Position numbers and translations under genes: made by a program. From assembly GCA_001940825.1 (NCBI GenBank), contig MSGT01000052.1, forward strand, positions 1 to 58,792: a stretch of 58,792 bases of DNA, given 5' to 3'. This document shows, piece after piece, positions 19,110 through 29,590 of this stretch. The stretch's first letter is position 1; each line of letters begins with the position of its first letter. This DNA is from Sphaerochaeta sp. Phil3. Its GTDB lineage: Bacteria > Spirochaetota > Spirochaetia > Sphaerochaetales > Sphaerochaetaceae. The notes beneath the pieces are model-generated. The model searched no databases. It saw nothing but the letters and a program-made list of their open reading frames with translations, and was not told the DNA's origin.

Positions 19110-19334
19110 TTCTTGGTCTTTGGGTCGTCTTCTGCGTCACTGCACTCGGGCTGTGCATCACAGCACTATCCCTCGTTTGTGTCCTTGAATACGGCTCAAA
19201 TCCCTGCGAATTGCATTCTTGGTCTTTGGGTCGTCTTCTGCGTCACTGCACTCGGGCTGTGCATCACAGCACTGTCCCTCGTTTGTGTCCTTGAATACGG
19301 CTCAAATCCCTGCGAATTGCATTCTTGGTCTTTT
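19109..19334. repeat. Tandem repeat, two full 106-bp units plus a partial third
   Basis: Units at 19109-19214 and 19215-19320 are nearly identical (one clear substitution, CACTATCC versus CACTGTCC), and a third breaks off after 14 nt. Each unit contains the small hairpin GCTGTG-CAT-CACAGC. The array begins at the stop codon of the pyridoxamine kinase gene. Diverged units occur at 53241-53460. It does not encode a convincing protein. Confidence 0.9.
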
Positions 19335-19638
19335 GATTTCCACAAAAACTTGGAAAAAACTCAGTTCAGTGGAAGATTTTCCACTTCTTTTGCAAAATCT
19401 GTACAAAAGAGAAACAGGTCTTTGCATAAAACCAATGAAAGCAGCTTTTTATGCAAATAAAGTTTAATATTTGGGGGGAAATGCCGTTTTTATTACACCT
19501 TGACATGTCTCCTTGATGGAAAGGACTTGGCTCTGAAAAGCTGGTTTCTCAAACTTTTTTTCAAAAAGTGTGAATGGAAACGCAAGGATTTTTTGAATTA
19601 GTTAGATAGAAGGCAAAAACACATAAAAGGAGGTGCTT
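19335..19638. other. AT-rich gene-free region with inverted repeats
   Basis: No gene is seen. The stretch holds a GTGGAA...TTCCAC hairpin (19369-19384), an 11-bp inverted repeat TTTGCATAAAA...TTTTATGCAAA (19421-19457) and a 7-bp A/T hairpin (19553-19569). The last part supplies the AGGAGG ribosome binding site (19628-19633) of the next gene. Confidence 0.6.
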
Positions 19639-21036: not shown

Positions 21037-21633
21037 ATGGAAGAAAAGAAGAACATCGGCAAGCTGCTCTTGGGTGAGTGGAACACAAAGACGATCGTCG
21101 CCGTCGCTGTTGGTGCAGCTCTGTTCGGAGTCCTCATGTGCTACGGTGGAATCCCTGTGTTCACCAATACGAGCCTTACGACTGCAATGCTTGTGCCTGT
21201 CATCGTCGGAGGTCTCTTTGGACCTCTTCCTGCCTTCGTCGCAGCGGGCGTCGGCAACGTGATCGCTGACCTTATAGGCGGTTGGGGAATGTGGTTCGAC
21301 TGGTCAATTGGAAACGCCGTGATGGCATTCTGCGTTGGACTGCTTCCAGTCTATGGTGCAAACATCAAGGAAGGCGTCTTTGAAGTGAAGCATATGGTCA
21401 TCTATGCAATATGCTGCATTCTTGGAAACGTGATTTCGTTTGGGGTCATAACTCCAATCTTCACCGTCATCTTCTATGGTGGCGACCTTGAAGTCACTTT
21501 CATCCAGGCATTCGCTGCAACACTTGGAAACTTTGCGGTGTTGGTCGTAGTTGGAATCCCTGTTCTCAAGGTTCTTGCAAACCGCTACAAGTCAAGGTCC
21601 AACCTGGCTCAGGAGCACAGCGACAACTATTGA
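21037..21633 (+). CDS. ECF transporter S component, ECF-ribofla_trS/UPF0397-like
   Basis: A 198-residue integral membrane protein with about five or six helices, resembling the UPF0397 family of substrate-capture subunits. Shared features are the N-terminal WNTKTIVAVAVGAALFGVLM, a central AGVGNVIADLIGGWGMWFDWSIGNAVMAF and a C-terminal ATLGNFAVLVVVGIP. It binds the vitamin-like substrate and docks on the A-A'-T module encoded downstream. A strong terminator separates the two, so it is expressed partly apart. The ligand cannot be read from sequence; the DUF62 array nearby points to an adenosyl, methionine or purine-related compound. Confidence 0.8.
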   Translation: MEEKKNIGKLLLGEWNTKTIVAVAVGAALFGVLMCYGGIPVFTNTSLTTAMLVPVIVGGLFGPLPAFVAAGVGNVIADLIGGWGMWFDWSIGNAVMAFCVGLLPVYGANIKEGVFEVKHMVIYAICCILGNVISFGVITPIFTVIFYGGDLEVTFIQAFAATLGNFAVLVVVGIPVLKVLANRYKSRSNLAQEHSDNY

Positions 21634-21649
21634 TGTCGTGTCGCGGATT

Positions 21650-21681
21650 GGGGCTGTTGTATGGCAACAGCCCCTTTTTTT
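21650..21681 (+). terminator. Intrinsic terminator
   Basis: GGGGCTGTTG paired with CAACAGCCCC around a 5-nt loop (10-bp perfect stem) and followed by seven T residues. A textbook rho-independent terminator between the S-component gene and the ECF ATPase gene. Confidence 0.95.
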
Positions 21682-21755
21682 GGTTTTTCGCTCTATTGCT
21701 TGGACAATTGGACGAGAAACTTTGACCCCATTTAAAACGACGATAGGAACGATCA

Positions 21756-23549
21756 ATGGCTGATACGGTAATCAGATTCAAGGACTTTGGGTTCCAGTAC
21801 AAGGTTCAGCAGAAACCTACTTTGTACGATATAAACCTGGAGATACACAAAGGGGAGAAGGTTCTGATCCTTGGAGGATCGGGCAGTGGGAAGTCCACAT
21901 TGGCCAATTGCATAAACGGACTCATCCCATTTTCATACGAAGGGACCATAACAGGGTCCGTTGAAGTCAACGGACACGAAACCAAGGGTTCTTCGATTTA
22001 TAAGCTAAGCAAGGAAGTAGGTACTGTGCTTCAGGACAGCGACGCCCAGTTCGTTGGTCTCTCCGTTGCGGAGGATATAGCCTTTGCAATGGAGAACGAG
22101 TGCATACCGCGTTCCCAAATGGTTCCAATAGTGGAGGAACATGCTGCAACCGTTGGCATGCAGGATTTCCTAAAGGCTGTGCCGTTCGACCTTTCAGGAG
22201 GTCAGAAGCAAAAGGTCGGCATTGCAGGAGTCCTTGGAAGCAATGTGGATATCCTCATATTCGACGAGCCTTTGGCCGCATTGGATCCAAGAATGGGCGA
22301 GATGGCCATAGAGCTCATAGACCAGCTTGCCCAGGACAAGGAAAGGACCATAGTCATAATAGAGCATAGACTTGAAGATGTGCTTCACAGACGCGTGGAC
22401 AGGGTCATCCTAATGTCTGAGGGACGCATAGTCGCAGACACGACGCCAGATGAGATTCTCAAAGGTACTCTTCTCCAGCAGTACGGGATACGAGAACCTC
22501 TCTATATTACCGCAATGAAGTATGCAGGTTGCAGTCTTGAAGGAAACGATGGCCTAAGCAGCATAGACAACATGGTTTTCTCTAATGAAAGCCGTGAGAA
22601 ACTCCTTCGTTTCTTTGAAAGCCAGGTGGAGTCCCATGAACCTCATCTTGGTGAGGAGCTTGTAGCGGTGAAGGATGTGTCCTTCTCATACGATGACAGC
22701 CGCAAGGTCCTTGAGGATGTCTCGTTTACGATCCACAAGGGTGAACGCATAGCCGTAGTTGGCAGAAACGGGGCTGGAAAGTCCACCGCCGCAAAGCTTA
22801 TATGCGGAATCTGCCGTCCCAACAAAGGTTCCATAACCATAGACGGCAAGGATGCCAAAGGCCTTTCCATAAAGGAGATTGGCGAGCGTGTTGGCTATGT
22901 CATGCAGAACCCCAACCAAATGATCGTGAAGGACACGATAAAGAACGAGGTCGAATATGCGCTCACGCTACGCAATATGCCAAGGGATCAGATAATAGCC
23001 CGTGCGACTGATGCCCTCAATGCATGCAGCCTCTTTCCCATGCGCAACTGGCCTGTCGATACGGTGAGCTATGGACAGAAGAAGAGGATAACCGTTGCAT
23101 CCATACTGGTGCTTCAACCTGATGTGATAATCCTTGACGAACCGTCTGCCGGACAGGACTACAGAAGCTACACTGAGATCATGAAGTTCCTTGATGTCCT
23201 CAACAAGGAGTATGGCAAGACCATAGTGTTCATAACCCATGACATGCACCTTGCTTTGGAGAACACTGACAGAGCCATAGTGTTCACCGATGGAAGGCTG
23301 CTCAAGGACGACAGGACGTTTGCCGTACTTGCGGACAACGACACCATTGAAAAGGCCAATCTCAAACAGACGTCCCTCTACAGACTCGCCCAAAGGCTTG
23401 GACTTGAGCCCGAGAGGGTCATACGCCATTTCATAGACTACGAGAACTACAGAAGCCGTGAAAAGGGGAACGCCAAAGACGAAGAGTTCGAAGGCAAAGA
23501 ACTTGAAGACGTAGAAGCTGAAGACTCAAAGGAGGGTGGACAGGCATGA
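21756..23549 (+). CDS. ECF transporter fused A-A' ATPase
   Basis: A 597-residue protein made of two ABC domains. Domain 1 has Walker A GGSGSGKST, signature LSGGQKQKVGIAG and Walker B ILIFDEP. Domain 2 has Walker A GRNGAGKST, an altered signature VSYGQKKRITVAS and Walker B VIILDEPSAGQD. This is the fused EcfA-EcfA' arrangement (YkoD-like). It energises import through the S and T subunits. The start has AGGAA 6 nt upstream. The charged Glu/Asp/Lys-rich C-terminal tail overlaps the EcfT gene by 4 nt. A weak promoter, TTGGAC-17-TTTAAA, may lie upstream. Confidence 0.93.
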   Translation: MADTVIRFKDFGFQYKVQQKPTLYDINLEIHKGEKVLILGGSGSGKSTLANCINGLIPFSYEGTITGSVEVNGHETKGSSIYKLSKEVGTVLQDSDAQFVGLSVAEDIAFAMENECIPRSQMVPIVEEHAATVGMQDFLKAVPFDLSGGQKQKVGIAGVLGSNVDILIFDEPLAALDPRMGEMAIELIDQLAQDKERTIVIIEHRLEDVLHRRVDRVILMSEGRIVADTTPDEILKGTLLQQYGIREPLYITAMKYAGCSLEGNDGLSSIDNMVFSNESREKLLRFFESQVESHEPHLGEELVAVKDVSFSYDDSRKVLEDVSFTIHKGERIAVVGRNGAGKSTAAKLICGICRPNKGSITIDGKDAKGLSIKEIGERVGYVMQNPNQMIVKDTIKNEVEYALTLRNMPRDQIIARATDALNACSLFPMRNWPVDTVSYGQKKRITVASILVLQPDVIILDEPSAGQDYRSYTEIMKFLDVLNKEYGKTIVFITHDMHLALENTDRAIVFTDGRLLKDDRTFAVLADNDTIEKANLKQTSLYRLAQRLGLEPERVIRHFIDYENYRSREKGNAKDEEFEGKELEDVEAEDSKEGGQA

Positions 23550-24466
23550 ACAACAGATTCCTGATAAACTTCACTCCAGGCAGCACGATGATGCACAAGC
23601 TTACAGGGGGAACCAAGGTCTTGCTGTTCGTCTTGTTCACCATTGCCATAATCGCCACGTTTGATGTAAGGGTCATAGCTGTGCTTTCGATCCTTCCAAT
23701 AGCCGCAATCATATCCATGAAGCCAAACTACAAACCCATAAGGTTCATGATAGGCTTCATGGTTCTTGTGGTTGGCATAATTGGCTCTCTAATGCTACTT
23801 CTCGTGTCTCCCAACGCCGGCCTTACAAACGTTGGCGGCAGCACCGTGATATGGCGCCTTGGTGAGAACTTCTTCGTCACGAAGGAGACCCTTTGGTACA
23901 TATTCGCAATGTTCGTCAAAAGGCTTGCCTCCTTCATGGTCGTCATAGCGTTCGTGCTTGCGACGACTCCAAGCGAGTTTGCATCGGGCTTGGCCTTCCT
24001 GCACGTTCCATACAAGGTGTGCACCATCGTCTCCCTTGCATACAGGACGATTCCAGACATTGCAAGACGCTATACCGACATAAAGAACAGCATGCAGATG
24101 CGCGGCGTCGAACTCTCGAAGAAGGCCTCCCTTGGAAAACGCCTCAAGGCCACTGCGGCGCTTCTGGTTCCACTTGTCGTATCGTCCTTTGGAAAGGTCG
24201 AGGTCATAGCCAACGCAATGGACCTAAGGGGGTTCGGACGGCTCAAGAAAAGGACCTGGTACTCCGAGCACGAGCTCACCAAGGCCGACAAGGTCCTAAG
24301 GAAGCTGTGCATTCTGTTCACGATTGGAATCGTGGCCTATATCGTTTGGTTCAGAGTCATAAATCCATGGCCTGTAACGTATTGGAGTCCGTTCATAGCC
24401 CGTGAGGACATCGTGAAGGTGGGTCGTTTCGAAACCCTGTCCATCCTCAAGTGGTTTGGCAAATAG
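23546..24466 (+). CDS. ECF transporter T component (EcfT)
   Basis: A 306-residue membrane coupling protein with about four or five helices near the N-terminus and the cytoplasmic coupling motifs AMDLRGFGR and, upstream, QMRGVELSKKASLGKRL, which contact the A and A' subunits through Ala-Arg-Gly-type sequences. It is translationally coupled to the ATPase gene by an ATGA overlap. The first DUF62 gene follows 37 nt after its stop, so the transporter and the adenosyl enzymes are probably one transcript. Confidence 0.92.
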   Translation: MNNRFLINFTPGSTMMHKLTGGTKVLLFVLFTIAIIATFDVRVIAVLSILPIAAIISMKPNYKPIRFMIGFMVLVVGIIGSLMLLLVSPNAGLTNVGGSTVIWRLGENFFVTKETLWYIFAMFVKRLASFMVVIAFVLATTPSEFASGLAFLHVPYKVCTIVSLAYRTIPDIARRYTDIKNSMQMRGVELSKKASLGKRLKATAALLVPLVVSSFGKVEVIANAMDLRGFGRLKKRTWYSEHELTKADKVLRKLCILFTIGIVAYIVWFRVINPWPVTYWSPFIAREDIVKVGRFETLSILKWFGK

Positions 24467-24502
24467 GCGCCACGAAATAGGCACTGCAACAAGGAGTTCG
24501 CA

Positions 24503-25342
24503 ATGAAAAGAGCAGTAGTACTACAGACCGATTTTGGCGAGGGCAACGTATCGGTCTCGACAATGAAAGGTGTTTGCAGAATCGTGGACCCAACGCTTGA
24601 GGTCTTCGATTCGACCCATTCCGTAAGGCCGTTCGATGTACTCAAGGCAAGCGACGCCTTGTTCTACGTCATTCCCTTCTGGCCTGCTGGAACCGTATTC
24701 GTGTCGGTCGTAGACCCTGGTGTTGGAACGTCGCGCAAGTCGTGCGTTGCGCTTCTGGAGAACGGAAGCTATGTTGTCACTCCTGACAATGGAACGCTTA
24801 CCTACATCAAGGATAGGCTTGGCATAAAGCAGGTGAGACAGATAGACGAGACCACGAACCGCTACCCAACGACGCGCGACGTGCATATCTTCCATGGCCG
24901 GGATGTCTATGCCTACACCGCCGCACGCCTTGCTGGCGGAGTGATAGACTACGAAGGGGTGGGTCCTGAATATCCTGTGTCCCAGATAGTCGAAGCCCCT
25001 TATGTGAAGCCTCGGAAGCTCGCTGACGAAGTCTACGGCATGATAGCCGATTCCTCAGTTCACTTTGGACTTGTCACCACGAACATCCCGTTCCGTTGGT
25101 TGGCAGAGTGCGGTATGGAATATGGCGACAATGTGAATATACGCATCGAGAATGCAGGTGAGTGCGTTCTTGAAGAAGTCGTTCCAATAGCCAAGAGCTT
25201 TGGGTTCGTGCCAGAGGGCTGCGATTTGGTCTACAATTCCGAGACCTCCATGATTGAGGTTGCAACGAACCGTAGGAACATGGTCGTTGAGCGCAATCTT
25301 GGCGATGGCGCTGATTGGACCCTTGCTGTACGCAAGGCCTGA
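24503..25342 (+). CDS. SAM hydroxide adenosyltransferase family (DUF62), paralogue A, intact
   Basis: A 279-residue DUF62 protein. Family members hydrolyse S-adenosylmethionine to adenosine and methionine, or transfer halide. The Asp-Arg-His triad of the hydrolases is present: Asp71 and Arg78 in VDPGVGTSRK and His131 in FHGRD. The nucleotide-binding TPDNGTL is also kept. The C-terminal beta-barrel domain (after about residue 170) is complete, ending in LGDGADWTLAVRK. The homotrimer active site lies between the N domain of one subunit and the C domain of the next. First of four tandem paralogues behind the ECF genes. Confidence 0.9.
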   Translation: MKRAVVLQTDFGEGNVSVSTMKGVCRIVDPTLEVFDSTHSVRPFDVLKASDALFYVIPFWPAGTVFVSVVDPGVGTSRKSCVALLENGSYVVTPDNGTLTYIKDRLGIKQVRQIDETTNRYPTTRDVHIFHGRDVYAYTAARLAGGVIDYEGVGPEYPVSQIVEAPYVKPRKLADEVYGMIADSSVHFGLVTTNIPFRWLAECGMEYGDNVNIRIENAGECVLEEVVPIAKSFGFVPEGCDLVYNSETSMIEVATNRRNMVVERNLGDGADWTLAVRKA

Positions 25343-25358
25343 CGAAGGAAGGTTTGAT

Positions 25359-26207
25359 ATGGATTCAAATGGAAAGGTTTCAAGGAAATCGGTCCCAAGT
25401 GGGGGACTTGTCGCCGTGCAGAGCGATTACGGCATGGGCGGTGCAGCTTCCAAGATCGTTGGCAGCATACTGTCCACAAGTCCAAGTACGACCGTCTACG
25501 ATGTGACAAGTGCAATTCCCAAAGGGGATGTGGCCACAGCTTCGTGCGCGATGTATTCGTTCTTCCAATTCTTTCCTGTTGGGAGCGTGTGCCTCTCCCT
25601 CGTTGGTGAGGGAAGGCCGTGTGTCGTGAAGACCTCTCAGGGCCGATGCATAGTGACGCCTGACAACGGAACGCTTACCGCATGGTATTCCAAGTTCCCT
25701 TTCGAAGAGGTCCGAGAGGTGGATCTGTCCGGTGCTCCTGACGGCTGCATCCCTCTTGCGTGGGCCGCAGCCCGTCTTGCAAGTGGAAAGTGCTCCTTTG
25801 AGGACATGGGACCTTCTTATTCCGTAAAGGACATCGTGCTTATTGACGCCAAGCCTGCAAAGGTTGGAGACGGCGTTGTGGAGTGTGGGGTGTTCAGCCT
25901 TGTGAGGAACTTTGGAAACCTGAACCTGAGTGCCACATACGAGGAGTTCGAGAAGTCCGGCATACGCTTTGGAGATCATGTCAATGTCCTGATGCGTAGG
26001 GATGGCGTTGAAATATTCAACGAAGATATGCTCTATGAGCATTCTTTTGGATTCGCAAAGCCTGGAGATCCAATCCTTTTCAACGGAAGCACCGGCTACA
26101 TGGGACTGGGGCTCAACCTTGAAAGCTTCGTCTCGAAGTATATGCCGGAGTCAATGGAGGATGGGTTCGACCTGTCTCGCTATGAGATTGCTATAAGAAG
26201 GATCTGA
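25359..26207 (+). CDS. DUF62 paralogue B, catalytic residues lost (pseudoenzyme)
   Basis: A 282-residue DUF62 protein that keeps the fold landmarks (VQSDYGMGG, IVTPDNGTLT, RLASGKCSFEDMGPSYSV and the full C-terminal domain ending YEIAIRRI) but has lost the catalytic triad. The VDPGVGTSRK segment is replaced by LVGEGRPC, and FHGRDVYAYTAARLASG by PDGCIPLAWAAARLASG. Hydrolysis is not expected; ligand binding or a structural role in a mixed trimer is possible. The start has AAGGAAGG 6 nt upstream. It sits between two intact paralogues in the same operon, 4 nt from the next gene. Confidence 0.85.
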   Translation: MDSNGKVSRKSVPSGGLVAVQSDYGMGGAASKIVGSILSTSPSTTVYDVTSAIPKGDVATASCAMYSFFQFFPVGSVCLSLVGEGRPCVVKTSQGRCIVTPDNGTLTAWYSKFPFEEVREVDLSGAPDGCIPLAWAAARLASGKCSFEDMGPSYSVKDIVLIDAKPAKVGDGVVECGVFSLVRNFGNLNLSATYEEFEKSGIRFGDHVNVLMRRDGVEIFNEDMLYEHSFGFAKPGDPILFNGSTGYMGLGLNLESFVSKYMPESMEDGFDLSRYEIAIRRI

Positions 26208-26211
26208 AGAT

Positions 26212-27141
26212 ATGAGTGATGTGGAAGTTGGAAATGCCACTGTGAATGGTGGCAAACCTGACATTGTTTTGATGACTGACTTTGGGCTTACGACAGGTTT
26301 TGTAGGTTCCATGTACGGCGTGATACGCAAGGTGGACCAAAGCCTTGGAGTGTTCGACCTCAACCATGAGATACGACCATACGACATGAGACAGGCAGCT
26401 TTCCTGCTCGCCGATACCGTCATGTACTGGAAGGACGGAACCGTTTTCGTATCCGTCGTAGACCCTGGAGTTGGAACATCACGCAAGTCGTGCGTTGCGC
26501 TTTTGGAGAATGGCAGCTATGTGGTGACTCCTGACAACGGAACGCTAACTGCAGTGAAGGACCACATTGTTGCAGTGCGTGAGATAGACGAGAGCGTCAA
26601 CCGCCTCTCTGGATCGGAGCGTGCCAACAGTTTCCATGGCCGTGATGTCTATGCCTACACCGCTGCTCGCCTTGCTTCTGGTATAATCGATTACGAGGGG
26701 GTGGGGCCTGAGTATTCCGTAGATGAGATAGTTTTGTTTCCCCAGACCAAGGGCCACGTGGAACCTGGTCTCGCAAGGGGCTGCATAACGGGCTGCCTCA
26801 AGCACTTTGGCTCTCCTGAGACCGATATCTCAGTGGTTGACTTCGAGAAGACAGGCATAGTGTACGGCGACATGGTCCATGTTCGCATAGAGAAGAAAGG
26901 TGCGGTTCTCTTTGATATGCCTGTGCTCTATCACAAGTCGTTTGGGTTCGTGCCTGAAGGCGAGCCCATACTTTGCAACGGAAGCACAAGTCCATACATG
27001 GAGATAAGCCTGAACAAACGCAGCTTCGCCCAGAGATACCTTCCAGACATCTTCGATGACGGCGAGGTTTTCACTGACTATTCCATTGAGATTTCAAAGC
27101 TATCGGGTTGTAGTGCCCACCAGTTTTCCAAGGAGGTGTGA
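26212..27141 (+). CDS. SAM hydroxide adenosyltransferase family (DUF62), paralogue C, intact
   Basis: A 309-residue paralogue with all three catalytic positions: Asp84 and Arg91 in VDPGVGTSRK and His142 in FHGRD. The stretch from VDPGVG to TPDNGTLT is identical in protein and nearly so in DNA to paralogue A, a sign of recent duplication or gene conversion. The C-terminal domain is complete. A longer N-terminus (about 16 extra residues) and a C-terminal tail distinguish it. The gene follows B by 4 nt and is followed 1 nt later by D. Confidence 0.9.
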   Translation: MSDVEVGNATVNGGKPDIVLMTDFGLTTGFVGSMYGVIRKVDQSLGVFDLNHEIRPYDMRQAAFLLADTVMYWKDGTVFVSVVDPGVGTSRKSCVALLENGSYVVTPDNGTLTAVKDHIVAVREIDESVNRLSGSERANSFHGRDVYAYTAARLASGIIDYEGVGPEYSVDEIVLFPQTKGHVEPGLARGCITGCLKHFGSPETDISVVDFEKTGIVYGDMVHVRIEKKGAVLFDMPVLYHKSFGFVPEGEPILCNGSTSPYMEISLNKRSFAQRYLPDIFDDGEVFTDYSIEISKLSGCSAHQFSKEV

Positions 27142-27142
27142 T

Positions 27143-27634
27143 ATGAGGCCATTTGTAGTTATGCAGACCGATTTTGGCGTAGGTGGCGGTGGTGCCATGT
27201 ACGGTGTATGCAAGACCGTTGACCCTGATCTAGGTGTCTACGACCTTAGCCATGTCATTCCAAAGTTCAATGTGGAGGCGGCGTCCAAGTCCTTGGTGTC
27301 AGTGATTCCATATTGGCCTGTCGGAACCGTGTTCGTATCCGTCGTGGATCCAGGCGTTGGAACTTCAAGGCGTGCATGCGTGGCAAAGACGTCCAACGGC
27401 TACTATGTCGTCACGCCTGACAACGGAACGCTTACGCTTCTCAAGAAGGAGTTTGGCATTGATGCCGTAAGGGAGATAGACGAGACCGTAAACAGGCTCA
27501 AGGGCACGGAGAAGACCAGCATATTCCATGGCAGAGACCTCTTTGCATACTGCGCCGCACGCCTTGCTTCAGGAGTGATAGACTTCGAAGGCGTTGGCCC
27601 TGGGTATCCAGTGGAGGAGATTGTCCTTTACTAG
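27143..27634 (+). CDS. DUF62 paralogue D, N-terminal domain only
   Basis: A 163-residue protein starting 6 nt after a perfect AGGAGG. It has an intact triad (Asp69, Arg76, His129) but ends at EEIVLY, exactly where the paralogues pass into the C-terminal domain. Because the active site needs the C domain of the neighbouring subunit, it could work only with a partner paralogue, or it is a decaying gene. No C-domain coding sequence follows; the convergent paralogue E begins to read 50 nt away. Confidence 0.8.
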   Translation: MRPFVVMQTDFGVGGGGAMYGVCKTVDPDLGVYDLSHVIPKFNVEAASKSLVSVIPYWPVGTVFVSVVDPGVGTSRRACVAKTSNGYYVVTPDNGTLTLLKKEFGIDAVREIDETVNRLKGTEKTSIFHGRDLFAYCAARLASGVIDFEGVGPGYPVEEIVLY

Positions 27635-27658
27635 TTCAAGAGAGACGTTTCAGAAAAT

Positions 27659-27700
27659 GCTTCAGAAGGCGAGGCCGTTGGTGGTCAGGCTTTCTGAAGC
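27659..27700. terminator. Inverted repeat between convergent DUF62 genes
   Basis: GCTTCAGAA (27659-27667) pairs with TTCTGAAGC (27692-27700) around a GC-rich 24-nt loop that can extend the stem. It overlaps the last codons of paralogue E and may terminate both convergent transcripts. Confidence 0.5.
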
Positions 27701-28572
27701 TTTATTGCCCAGTTCTCACCTGAACCAATTCTGTACTCCTGTGCGAAGCTTCCTTGGTTTATTGCAAGGCCAACGTTCAGGAGGCTGTTTATGTACAGAA
27801 GCGGTTCGCCTATCTCCACTTCAGTGAAGTTCCTGCACATTCGCATCGTATAGCCAAAGACTATCTTGTGGTTGTGGCTTATGAGGACCCTCACATCGTC
27901 TCCGTACTTGATGCCGTACTTCTCGAAGATCATGGTGTCCGGGATGTTGGTCCAAAGGCTTCCATAGCGTGTGTCAAGGACGTCTATGTTTCCACAGACC
28001 TCTCCTCCTTCTATGACCGGATCCGATACGTTGAGCATGACGGGGTTTGGTTCAAGAAGGGGACCCACTTCGTCGAACGTTATGGTTCCGCTTGCAATCC
28101 TAGCTCCAGTGTATGCATACACGTCACGTCCATAGAAGGTGAACGACCTTTGGCTGTTCTTGAGCCTGTTGACGGTCTCGCTTATCCTACGTCTTTCAAG
28201 GATTCCAATCTCCTTTGCAACGTGCGACAGTGTGCCGTTGTCAGGTGTCACTATGACGTGTCCTGTTTTTGTAAGCACCGCCACGCTTTCACGTTCCGAT
28301 CCCACACCCGGGTCCACGACTGATACGAAAACGGTTCCGGGGGCCCAGAACGACATCGTTTGGATGAGTCTGTAGCTTGCCTCCCATATGTTGAACTGTG
28401 GGATTTCATGCGTAAGGTCTTCAAGCTTGAGGTTGTGGTCCACTTCGTCCGCAACTCCGTGCATGGCGCTCACGGCTCCGTCCACATATCCAAAGTCCGA
28501 CATGAACACAACAGTGCCCCTTTTCGTCCATGGTGCAAGCTCTTTGAGCTCCTTTGCGCTTTCGTATGTCAT
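27685..28572 (-). CDS. DUF62 paralogue E, catalytic His replaced by Tyr
   Basis: A 295-residue DUF62 protein on the opposite strand. Asp87 and Arg94 are present (VDPGVGSERE), but the conserved FHGRD reads FYGRD, with Tyr147 at the catalytic His position. The rest, including TPDNGTL and the C-terminal ending GSGENWAIKLQK, is conserved. It is the most diverged intact-length copy and may have altered chemistry or none. A GGAGG stands 9 nt before the ATG. The Rpn nuclease gene lies 50 nt upstream on the same strand. Confidence 0.85.
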   Translation of the reverse strand: MTYESAKELKELAPWTKRGTVVFMSDFGYVDGAVSAMHGVADEVDHNLKLEDLTHEIPQFNIWEASYRLIQTMSFWAPGTVFVSVVDPGVGSERESVAVLTKTGHVIVTPDNGTLSHVAKEIGILERRRISETVNRLKNSQRSFTFYGRDVYAYTGARIASGTITFDEVGPLLEPNPVMLNVSDPVIEGGEVCGNIDVLDTRYGSLWTNIPDTMIFEKYGIKYGDDVRVLISHNHKIVFGYTMRMCRNFTEVEIGEPLLYINSLLNVGLAINQGSFAQEYRIGSGENWAIKLQKA

Positions 28573-28622: not shown

Positions 28623-29495
28623 TCATTGTCCAATGATTCTTTGGACCTCTTCGATGCCAAGGGAAGCACATTTTGCAATCATTGGGATTGGAATTCCGTT
28701 TGCATTCATCTCCTTGACCATGCGGTTTCGTTCGTTGGAGACACCTCTAGCCTCTCCAATGGAGATTCCTTCAGCCTCGCCGGCGGTTCTGCCCTCGTCG
28801 TATTTGTCCTTTAGAAGGAACTCCAGCTTCATGTACTCTTTCCTCCAGTCGTCGTCTCTGTTGTACTTCTGTACGTACTTGTCCAGAACCGTCACAAGCC
28901 CGCTTCTGGTCTCCATCCCTATGGCCCCGACACCTCCGTTCAGATACCTGAACAGCTCGTCCATGTCCAGGTTGGAGACGCCCTTGGAACCTCTGCTGTT
29001 CAGGAACATGATATATCTACGGTCCCCAAGTGGCAAGCCTTGGACGTCCTCGCACATCGTGGAGAACCTGTAGACCTTCTCGTCTTTTGCAAACGGATCG
29101 AACGTGCACAGGAATATCACATAGCTTGTCCTCATGCTCCCAAAGCCCTCGCCCTTGTCCAGCATGGCTATGTCCATGGAGGAGGAATACAGCCTTGCCC
29201 TTTGGGCGAGGTCCGTGATCGACGTACGCTGCAGTTCGATGTCGTACACCGTCTTTCCATCGTCGAAGTAGACGTCGAGCCTCACGCCCCTTCTCATTGG
29301 ATCTGAGAGTATGCTCTTCTCCGCCTCGGGATGCCTTGCATACCTTATGTCCGCTATGCGGTGTTCATCGCCGAATATGGCCTCCAGCAGCTTGATGCAT
29401 GCCTTCTTGTTCTTCATGACCGTGGTGAACATGAAGTTGTTCTCCAGGGCCACGTCGTTCCTGTTCCTTGCAACTGCGTTTTCCTTAATCTTCAT
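28623..29495 (-). CDS. Rpn-family PD-(D/E)XK nuclease (putative transposase)
   Basis: A 290-residue protein of the Rpn/PDDEXK_2 group, recombination-promoting nucleases once annotated as transposases. The N-terminal NNFMFTTVMKNKKACIKLLEAIFG and the active-site strand pair RLDVYFDDGKTVYDIELQR (Asp, Glu, Gln) are typical. The tail has the Gly-Glu-Ala rich repeats EGRTAGEAEGISIGEARG and a coiled C-terminus, also usual. Start at 29495 has AGAGG 8 nt upstream; an in-frame TTG further upstream is less likely. An accessory gene next to the DUF62 cluster. Confidence 0.88.
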   Translation of the reverse strand: MKIKENAVARNRNDVALENNFMFTTVMKNKKACIKLLEAIFGDEHRIADIRYARHPEAEKSILSDPMRRGVRLDVYFDDGKTVYDIELQRTSITDLAQRARLYSSSMDIAMLDKGEGFGSMRTSYVIFLCTFDPFAKDEKVYRFSTMCEDVQGLPLGDRRYIMFLNSRGSKGVSNLDMDELFRYLNGGVGAIGMETRSGLVTVLDKYVQKYNRDDDWRKEYMKLEFLLKDKYDEGRTAGEAEGISIGEARGVSNERNRMVKEMNANGIPIPMIAKCASLGIEEVQRIIGQ

Positions 29496-29590
29496 ATCTA
29501 AGACCTCTCTGAATTTGGATTGAAGGGCTTTGGAAACCCTACATAATTCCAAATACGAGAAACCTGCAGTTTCCGTTCTCGCTTTTCGAA

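Follow-up and report, generated by a model that had tools for sequence, protein, structure and literature searches.

An ECF transporter joined to an array of DUF62 paralogues in Sphaerochaeta sp. Phil3: a candidate SAM-salvage module

Organization of the ECF-DUF62 locus

The window analysed here is a stretch of 58,792 nucleotides from the gut-type spirochaete Sphaerochaeta sp. Phil3 (contig MSGT01000052.1, positions 1 to 58,792). It carries a complete ECF transporter, all components of which were recognized by Pfam and NCBIfam: the substrate-binding component EcfS (21037..21633, forward strand; PF07155, 105 bits), a fused ATPase EcfA-A' with two ABC domains and a DUF3744 domain (21756..23549, forward) and EcfT (CbiQ; 23546..24466, forward). 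Four DUF62 genes follow on the same strand, A (24503..25342), B (25359..26207), C (26212..27141) and D (27143..27634), and a fifth, the type-1 gene E, is convergent with them (27685..28572, reverse strand). PF01887 matched all five above the Pfam cut-off (E ≤ 2e-17), and together they form the complete DUF62 set of the 2.36 Mb assembly. The gene content and order given by an earlier sequence-only reading of this DNA were thus confirmed for every gene.

The same reading had described the gaps as short. This holds from EcfA-A' through E: EcfA-A' and EcfT overlap by 4 bp, EcfT and A are separated by 36 bp, A and B by 16 bp, B and C by 4 bp, C and D by 1 bp, and the convergent genes D and E by 50 bp. 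It does not hold for the wider gap of 122 bp between EcfS and EcfA-A', which contains a terminator-like hairpin with an 11 bp stem followed by seven T residues (21650..21674, forward). A strong hairpin, in some cases with a T-run, is found at this place in most of the related arrays described below (L064, L065, L066, L068, L247, L249, L252, L255), and EcfS may be produced in excess of the remaining gene products.

What the sequence-only reading had missed are the differences among the five DUF62 proteins. The catalytic Asp-Arg-His (D-R-H) triad is intact in A, C and D; B has lost all three residues (D68, R75 and H127) from its N-domain, and E carries Tyr in place of the catalytic His. The C-terminal domain SAM_HAT_C is present in A, B, C and E and absent from D, a protein of 163 aa that consists of the N-domain only.

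A conserved array with five positions

The same array was found in 16 other complete loci, mostly of Erysipelotrichales and other Bacillota, giving 17 with the window. Eight Bacillota loci were recovered by a scan for type-2 DUF62 genes, and ten newly fetched loci yielded nine more complete arrays; contig ends truncate the arrays L064 and L250, which do not count among the 17. The array genomes are mostly metagenome-assembled. In the complete arrays the order EcfS-EcfA-A'-EcfT is followed by DUF62 genes at positions P1 to P5 or subsets of these. The five positions are syntenic, and the proteins at P1, P3, P4 and P5 each fall into a clade of their own across arrays, which indicates old orthologous positions.

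The array nearest to that of the window is L061. Window A groups with P1 of L061 (99/90) and window C falls into the P3 clade (99/97). The N-domain tree gave no firm placement of B, a long branch, which occupies position P2. The window array has no full-length P4. Instead, D combines a P4-like N-domain, closest to P4 of L061 (74%), with a P5-like end, its stop lying at the same residue as in P5 of other arrays; judged from these similarities, D is possibly a P4/P5 recombinant. D was also considered as the product of a frameshift, which was rejected: the 50 bp separating D from E cannot hold a remnant of a C-domain, and D stops where P5 does elsewhere.

Position P1 is missing from three arrays (L068, L072, L073), and a single open reading frame with a short linker encodes P1 and P2 together in three related genomes. 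L311 has a true P1 (495 bits), but neither P2 nor P5 was seen there, which shows that P1 can also occur outside arrays. A DUF62 fragment of 102 aa at the edge of L306 matched P2 best, at 75 bits, which is too weak to class it.

With a profile built on B, B-type proteins score 348-449 bits and all other DUF62 proteins of about 1,100 genomes at most 221 bits, which separates the two. Carriers of a B-type gene are rare: 12 of 316 genomes of one order that contains the Erysipelotrichaceae, a single one of 394 in the order to which L066 belongs and, among 393 Spirochaetota, the window genome only.

Reciprocal losses in B-type and D-type proteins

Residues are numbered as in fluorinase or PH0463 and were mapped onto the alignment by motif, in part with the fluorinase sequence as a guide. 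The set of SAM-binding residues used was that of PMC3999930, and the triad was defined according to PMC10491745.

The catalytic N-domain residues are gone from P2 proteins in 19 of 19 cases, and in all 19 the C-domain residues N215, S269 and N278 are retained. The opposite pattern was seen for P5 and window D: the N-domain residues are retained in 17 of 17 proteins bar one Arg change, and the C-domain is absent from all 17, the P5 orthologues included. The 147 other intact DUF62 genes used as controls show neither pattern: D68, R75 and the C-domain are always present in them. Both the copy with the dead N-domain and the short copy were found in 17/17 arrays on long enough contigs, a co-occurrence that does not amount to 17 independent events because the arrays share ancestry. 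In close pairs, dN/dS was 0.06-0.10 for P2 and 0.03-0.16 for P5. Values of 0.03-0.16 place both under purifying selection, and neither is decaying.

The AlphaFold model of B (pLDDT 79.5) matched 40 chains of DUF62-family structures with E ≤ 1e-12 and TM scores of about 0.6-0.75, and B is predicted to retain the whole DUF62 fold. Going by its residues, B is a member of this fold family which, by itself, would not be an enzyme of that kind. Changes were also noted in the C-domain of A and P1 (N215 to L and S269 to E, fluorinase numbering); they were dropped as a candidate loss, since Glu at position 269 also occurs in 51 of the 147 controls.

Origin of the block

The window EcfS shares 73-74% identity with EcfS of Bacillota arrays (L066, L068), compared with 26-33% for relatives in the genus and family. 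For EcfA-A' the values are 61-67% for array homologues and 51-53% for native relatives, and the window EcfT is 64% identical to that of L061. E, on the other hand, is the native spirochaete copy. It is 69-74% identical to E of the relatives, which lies in the same place beside the relatives' own ECF genes. These relatives have a different EcfS-EcfA-A'-EcfT set at this site, convergent with E, and share the genes downstream of E with the window. Both flanks are native, the left one with PdxK (67-68% identity to family members) and the right one with E and the conserved gene run; a comparison of the copper ATPase flank did not narrow the kinship further. GC3 is uniform. An assembly chimera is unlikely in view of the native flanks and the uniform GC3. 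Most likely, as far as identities and gene order tell, a Bacillota-like block from the ECF genes to D has replaced the native transporter horizontally and in place at the spirochaete E locus, and has since been ameliorated.

Two further features lie close to the block. Intergenic tandem repeats at 19110-19460, in the interval between PdxK and the array, show as repeated peptides in overlapping reading frames. A gene of the PD-(D/E)XK transposase family (Rpn-like; 28623-29552) separates E from the conserved gene run that follows; no counterpart was seen at the loci of the relatives, and the gene may be linked to the rearrangement.

E and its orthologues in several relatives carry Tyr, Phe or Gln instead of the catalytic His and retain Asp and Arg. 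Fluorinases have Tyr at this position as well. Judged by this residue, single-copy proteins of the E type may not be ordinary hydrolases.

Linkage of DUF62 and ECF genes across genomes

Within the phylum, DUF62 genes were found in 28 of the 101 relative genomes searched; 22 carry one copy, five carry two, and the window genome is the only one with five. The earlier statement that most genomes have a single copy is thus correct for the phylum (22 of 28), but it does not extend to the Bacillota, in which two DUF62 copies adjoining an ECF transporter are commonplace. In the 28 DUF62-bearing genomes the gene nearly always adjoins an ECF set. The scan for type-2 DUF62 genes in 84,980 species genomes returned 80 loci, mostly of Bacillota and mostly beside ECF genes. 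ECF genes are present at 150 of the 183 DUF62 loci gathered and lie within 2 kb in 150/150, in a sample that was picked by DUF62 and not by ECF, is skewed to relatives of the window clade and includes some short contigs. The linkage of ECF and DUF62 genes is general. This supports the joint function that the sequence-only reading had inferred; unlinked DUF62 genes in relatives, which would have spoken against it, were not what we observed at these 150 loci. None of the papers searched connects DUF62 with ECF transporters.

Additional genes and gene fusions were seen at some of these loci. In 13 of them, a PepV-like M20 dipeptidase is encoded between EcfT and the first DUF62 gene (e.g. L286:10125-11486). 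Genes for a GNAT acetyltransferase and/or a GntR-type regulator lie beside or inside several loci of Lachnospiraceae (L067, L069, L070, L071, L090-L096). In several of the spirochaete relatives (L046, L047, L048, L051-L053, L055, L057), EcfA-A' and EcfT are joined in a single protein about 870-900 residues long.

Riboswitches and gene context

A SAM-I riboswitch model run over 163 loci (2.45 Mb) gave six confident sites. One lies before metK next to a DUF62 gene (L291), one elsewhere (L071), and four lie directly before EcfS (L065, L286, L300, L307), out of about 150 loci; the regulatory evidence as a whole comes from a minority of loci. L065 is an array, and its site scores 59 bits with Rfam; the site at L307 (54.7 bits) was detected by the model run here, which had not been trained on this locus. 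By a rough estimate, the chance of four out of six sites falling into the approximately 300 bp before EcfS is about 1e-7. Terminator-like hairpins follow all four aptamers upstream of EcfS, which points to the usual off-switch design.

Other features of the context were in line with these sites. At L260 a purine riboswitch (63 bits) is located 48 bp before EcfS, and the C in its GACTAT motif marks it as guanine-type. At L303, metK lies 8 bp from EcfS. Genes for MetQ, MetI and MetN are nearby in nine loci, including the array L251, where they are preceded by a T-box. No FMN riboswitch was present at any of about 60 loci scanned. Upstream of the window operon no SAM or other riboswitch was detected, even with relaxed thresholds, and the window genome has no SAM-I riboswitch. 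The link of the window to SAM rests on the homology of its EcfS and its array to riboswitch-bearing loci.

The import of a compound related to SAM, adenosine or methionine, which the sequence-only reading had inferred, is well in accord with the four SAM-I sites before EcfS, the metK and MetNIQ neighbours and the purine riboswitch. Together, riboswitches and gene context support a SAM, methionine or adenosine substrate over riboflavin.

Proposed function of the module

With a probability of roughly one half, we propose that the block is a SAM-salvage module. The ECF transporter would import an adenosyl compound that resembles SAM and is shed by other cells in the gut or rumen; the likeliest candidate is SAM itself, its non-biological (R,S) epimer included. 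The DUF62 proteins, as subunits of one hetero-oligomer, would hydrolyse this compound to methionine and adenosine, which would then replenish the methionine/SAM and purine pools. Both the substrate and hydrolysis as the physiological reaction are inferred. A joint need for methionine and purine suggests a compound that can be a source of the two at once, and SAM, when split by DUF62 chemistry, is one. An off-switch responding to SAM that induces a SAM hydrolase speaks against the proposal at first sight, since it would be futile to hydrolyse cellular (S,S)-SAM at low SAM. The enzyme is more likely to act on a pool brought in from outside the cell or on the (R,S) epimer.

In a different division of labour, the cargo of the transporter would be methionine, one of its precursors or a nucleoside similar to adenosine, and the DUF62 proteins would act apart from it, as damage control inside the cell that clears (R,S)-SAM. 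Part of this evidence would also serve such a scheme, which we consider rather unlikely, if worth keeping in mind. SAM-I riboswitches and MetNIQ neighbours suit methionine uptake as such, the guanine-type switch suits nucleoside uptake, and StDUF62 prefers (R,S)-SAM (PMC10491745, PMC12120602). However, MetNIQ already serves methionine in several loci, the 150/150 linkage to a transporter exceeds what general damage control would need, and four or five paralogues with reciprocal losses are left unexplained by it. That the transporter takes up riboflavin or another vitamin, with DUF62 as a mere neighbour, is improbable. The NCBIfam label of EcfS, "ECF-type riboflavin transporter", is scored above its cut-off (129 versus 99 bits), and Thermotoga RibU is among the nearest folds of the AlphaFold model (pLDDT 85). 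Yet the nearest solved fold is FolT (TM 0.66), followed by RibU and ThiT, so the modelled structure matches the general S-component fold and names no substrate. Placement by sequence among solved S components gave no usable match, RibU included. The general ECF-DUF62 linkage, and the presence of SAM-I and purine switches with FMN switches at none of the loci scanned for them, are likewise hard to reconcile with riboflavin uptake. Finally, the family includes a fluorinase and a chlorinase, and E has Tyr at the position of the catalytic His; the DUF62 proteins might hence transfer halide to SAM to form a 5'-halo-adenosine, and the cargo of the transporter would then be this product or one of its precursors. 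This is highly improbable, because halogenases are devoid of the triad (PMC10491745) that A, C and D possess, and the NCBIfam fluorinase model scores only 29-84 bits against a cut-off of 400.

Possible division of the active site among paralogues

The active sites in DUF62 and fluorinase structures are found where the protomers of a trimer meet (PMC12120602, PMC2515338). Since B and D have lost complementary halves of such a site, the paralogues may be subunits of a hetero-oligomer rather than separate enzymes, and from their sequences those of the array probably act as one mixed complex. B would supply a C-domain half-site, its N-domain half being dead, and D would supply the catalytic N-domain half without a C-domain. 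If B stands beside D in the trimer, the dead N-face of B would be opposite the missing C-domain of D and both losses would fall on one interface. This adjacency would leave two working sites, with A as the other neighbour of B; this arrangement is deduced from the pattern of losses.

The idea of several DUF62 proteins of different capability, put forward from the sequence before, stands in outline. It implied independent enzymes, however, and both the A-B fusions and the way in which B and D have lost opposite halves point to subunits of one hetero-oligomer. Independent enzymes of differing specificity, with B a decaying pseudogene and D a truncation, would agree with the full triad in A, C and D; they are scarcely probable, given that B-type and D-type proteins keep to the same places in the arrays of different phyla, with dN/dS of 0.03-0.16, and that B-type proteins retain their C-domain site residues (19/19). 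For B, decay was ruled out on the same grounds: cross-phylum conservation, purifying selection and the retained C-domain site.

A more specific version of the hetero-oligomer proposal is possible, though we hold it to be doubtful: a SAM-splitting machine of four or five DUF62 proteins with complementary half-sites, among them one dead-N and one N-only subunit, dedicated to a SAM ECF transporter, perhaps docked to it at the vacated interface and cleaving SAM on entry. To our knowledge no ECF transporter for SAM has been known before, and that of the array, if the proposal is true, would be the first. The array offers a testable case in which the inter-subunit active site of an enzyme family is divided among specialised paralogues, and the natural loss-of-half mutants and the natural A-B fusion may serve as guides for experiments. 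For DUF62 as a family, the ECF linkage, the SAM-I and purine riboswitches and the proximity of metK and MetNIQ suggest a role in salvage, with SAM or another sulfonium akin to it as the imported compound. A study from 2025 holds that hydrolysis of (R,S)-SAM may not be the role of DUF62 (PMC12120602).

Comparison with known systems

The window proteins share their fold with the DUF62 SAM hydroxide adenosyltransferases/(R)-SAM hydrolases PH0463, TM and StDUF62 (PF01887 + PF20257), and A, C and D also share the triad; the inter-protomer active site of these enzymes is expected in the window proteins, too. The fluorinase FlA and the chlorinase SalL have the same fold; in FlA two trimers form a dimer, and the active sites are located where subunits meet. 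Both are homomers without the hydrolytic triad.

The closest functional analogue is the queuosine salvage operon QueK-QrtT-QueL of C. difficile, in which a riboswitch-controlled ECF substrate component is combined with a hydrolase for the imported nucleoside (PMC11477304). Enzymes and substrate are unrelated to those proposed here, however, and the ECF-DUF62 module carries its own A-A' and T components.

Nearer in sequence are the ECF-DUF62 loci of Spirochaetota and Bacillota with one or two DUF62 genes, which have the same EcfS family, a fused EcfA-A', EcfT and adjacent DUF62. They contain one type-1 and/or one type-2 DUF62 protein, full-length and with D68 and R75, and neither a pseudoenzyme nor an N-domain-only copy. 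DUF62 proteins have so far been described as single genes and homotrimers, in contrast to the four or five linked paralogues of the window and the related arrays, among which a member with a dead N-domain and a member with the N-domain only are obligate.
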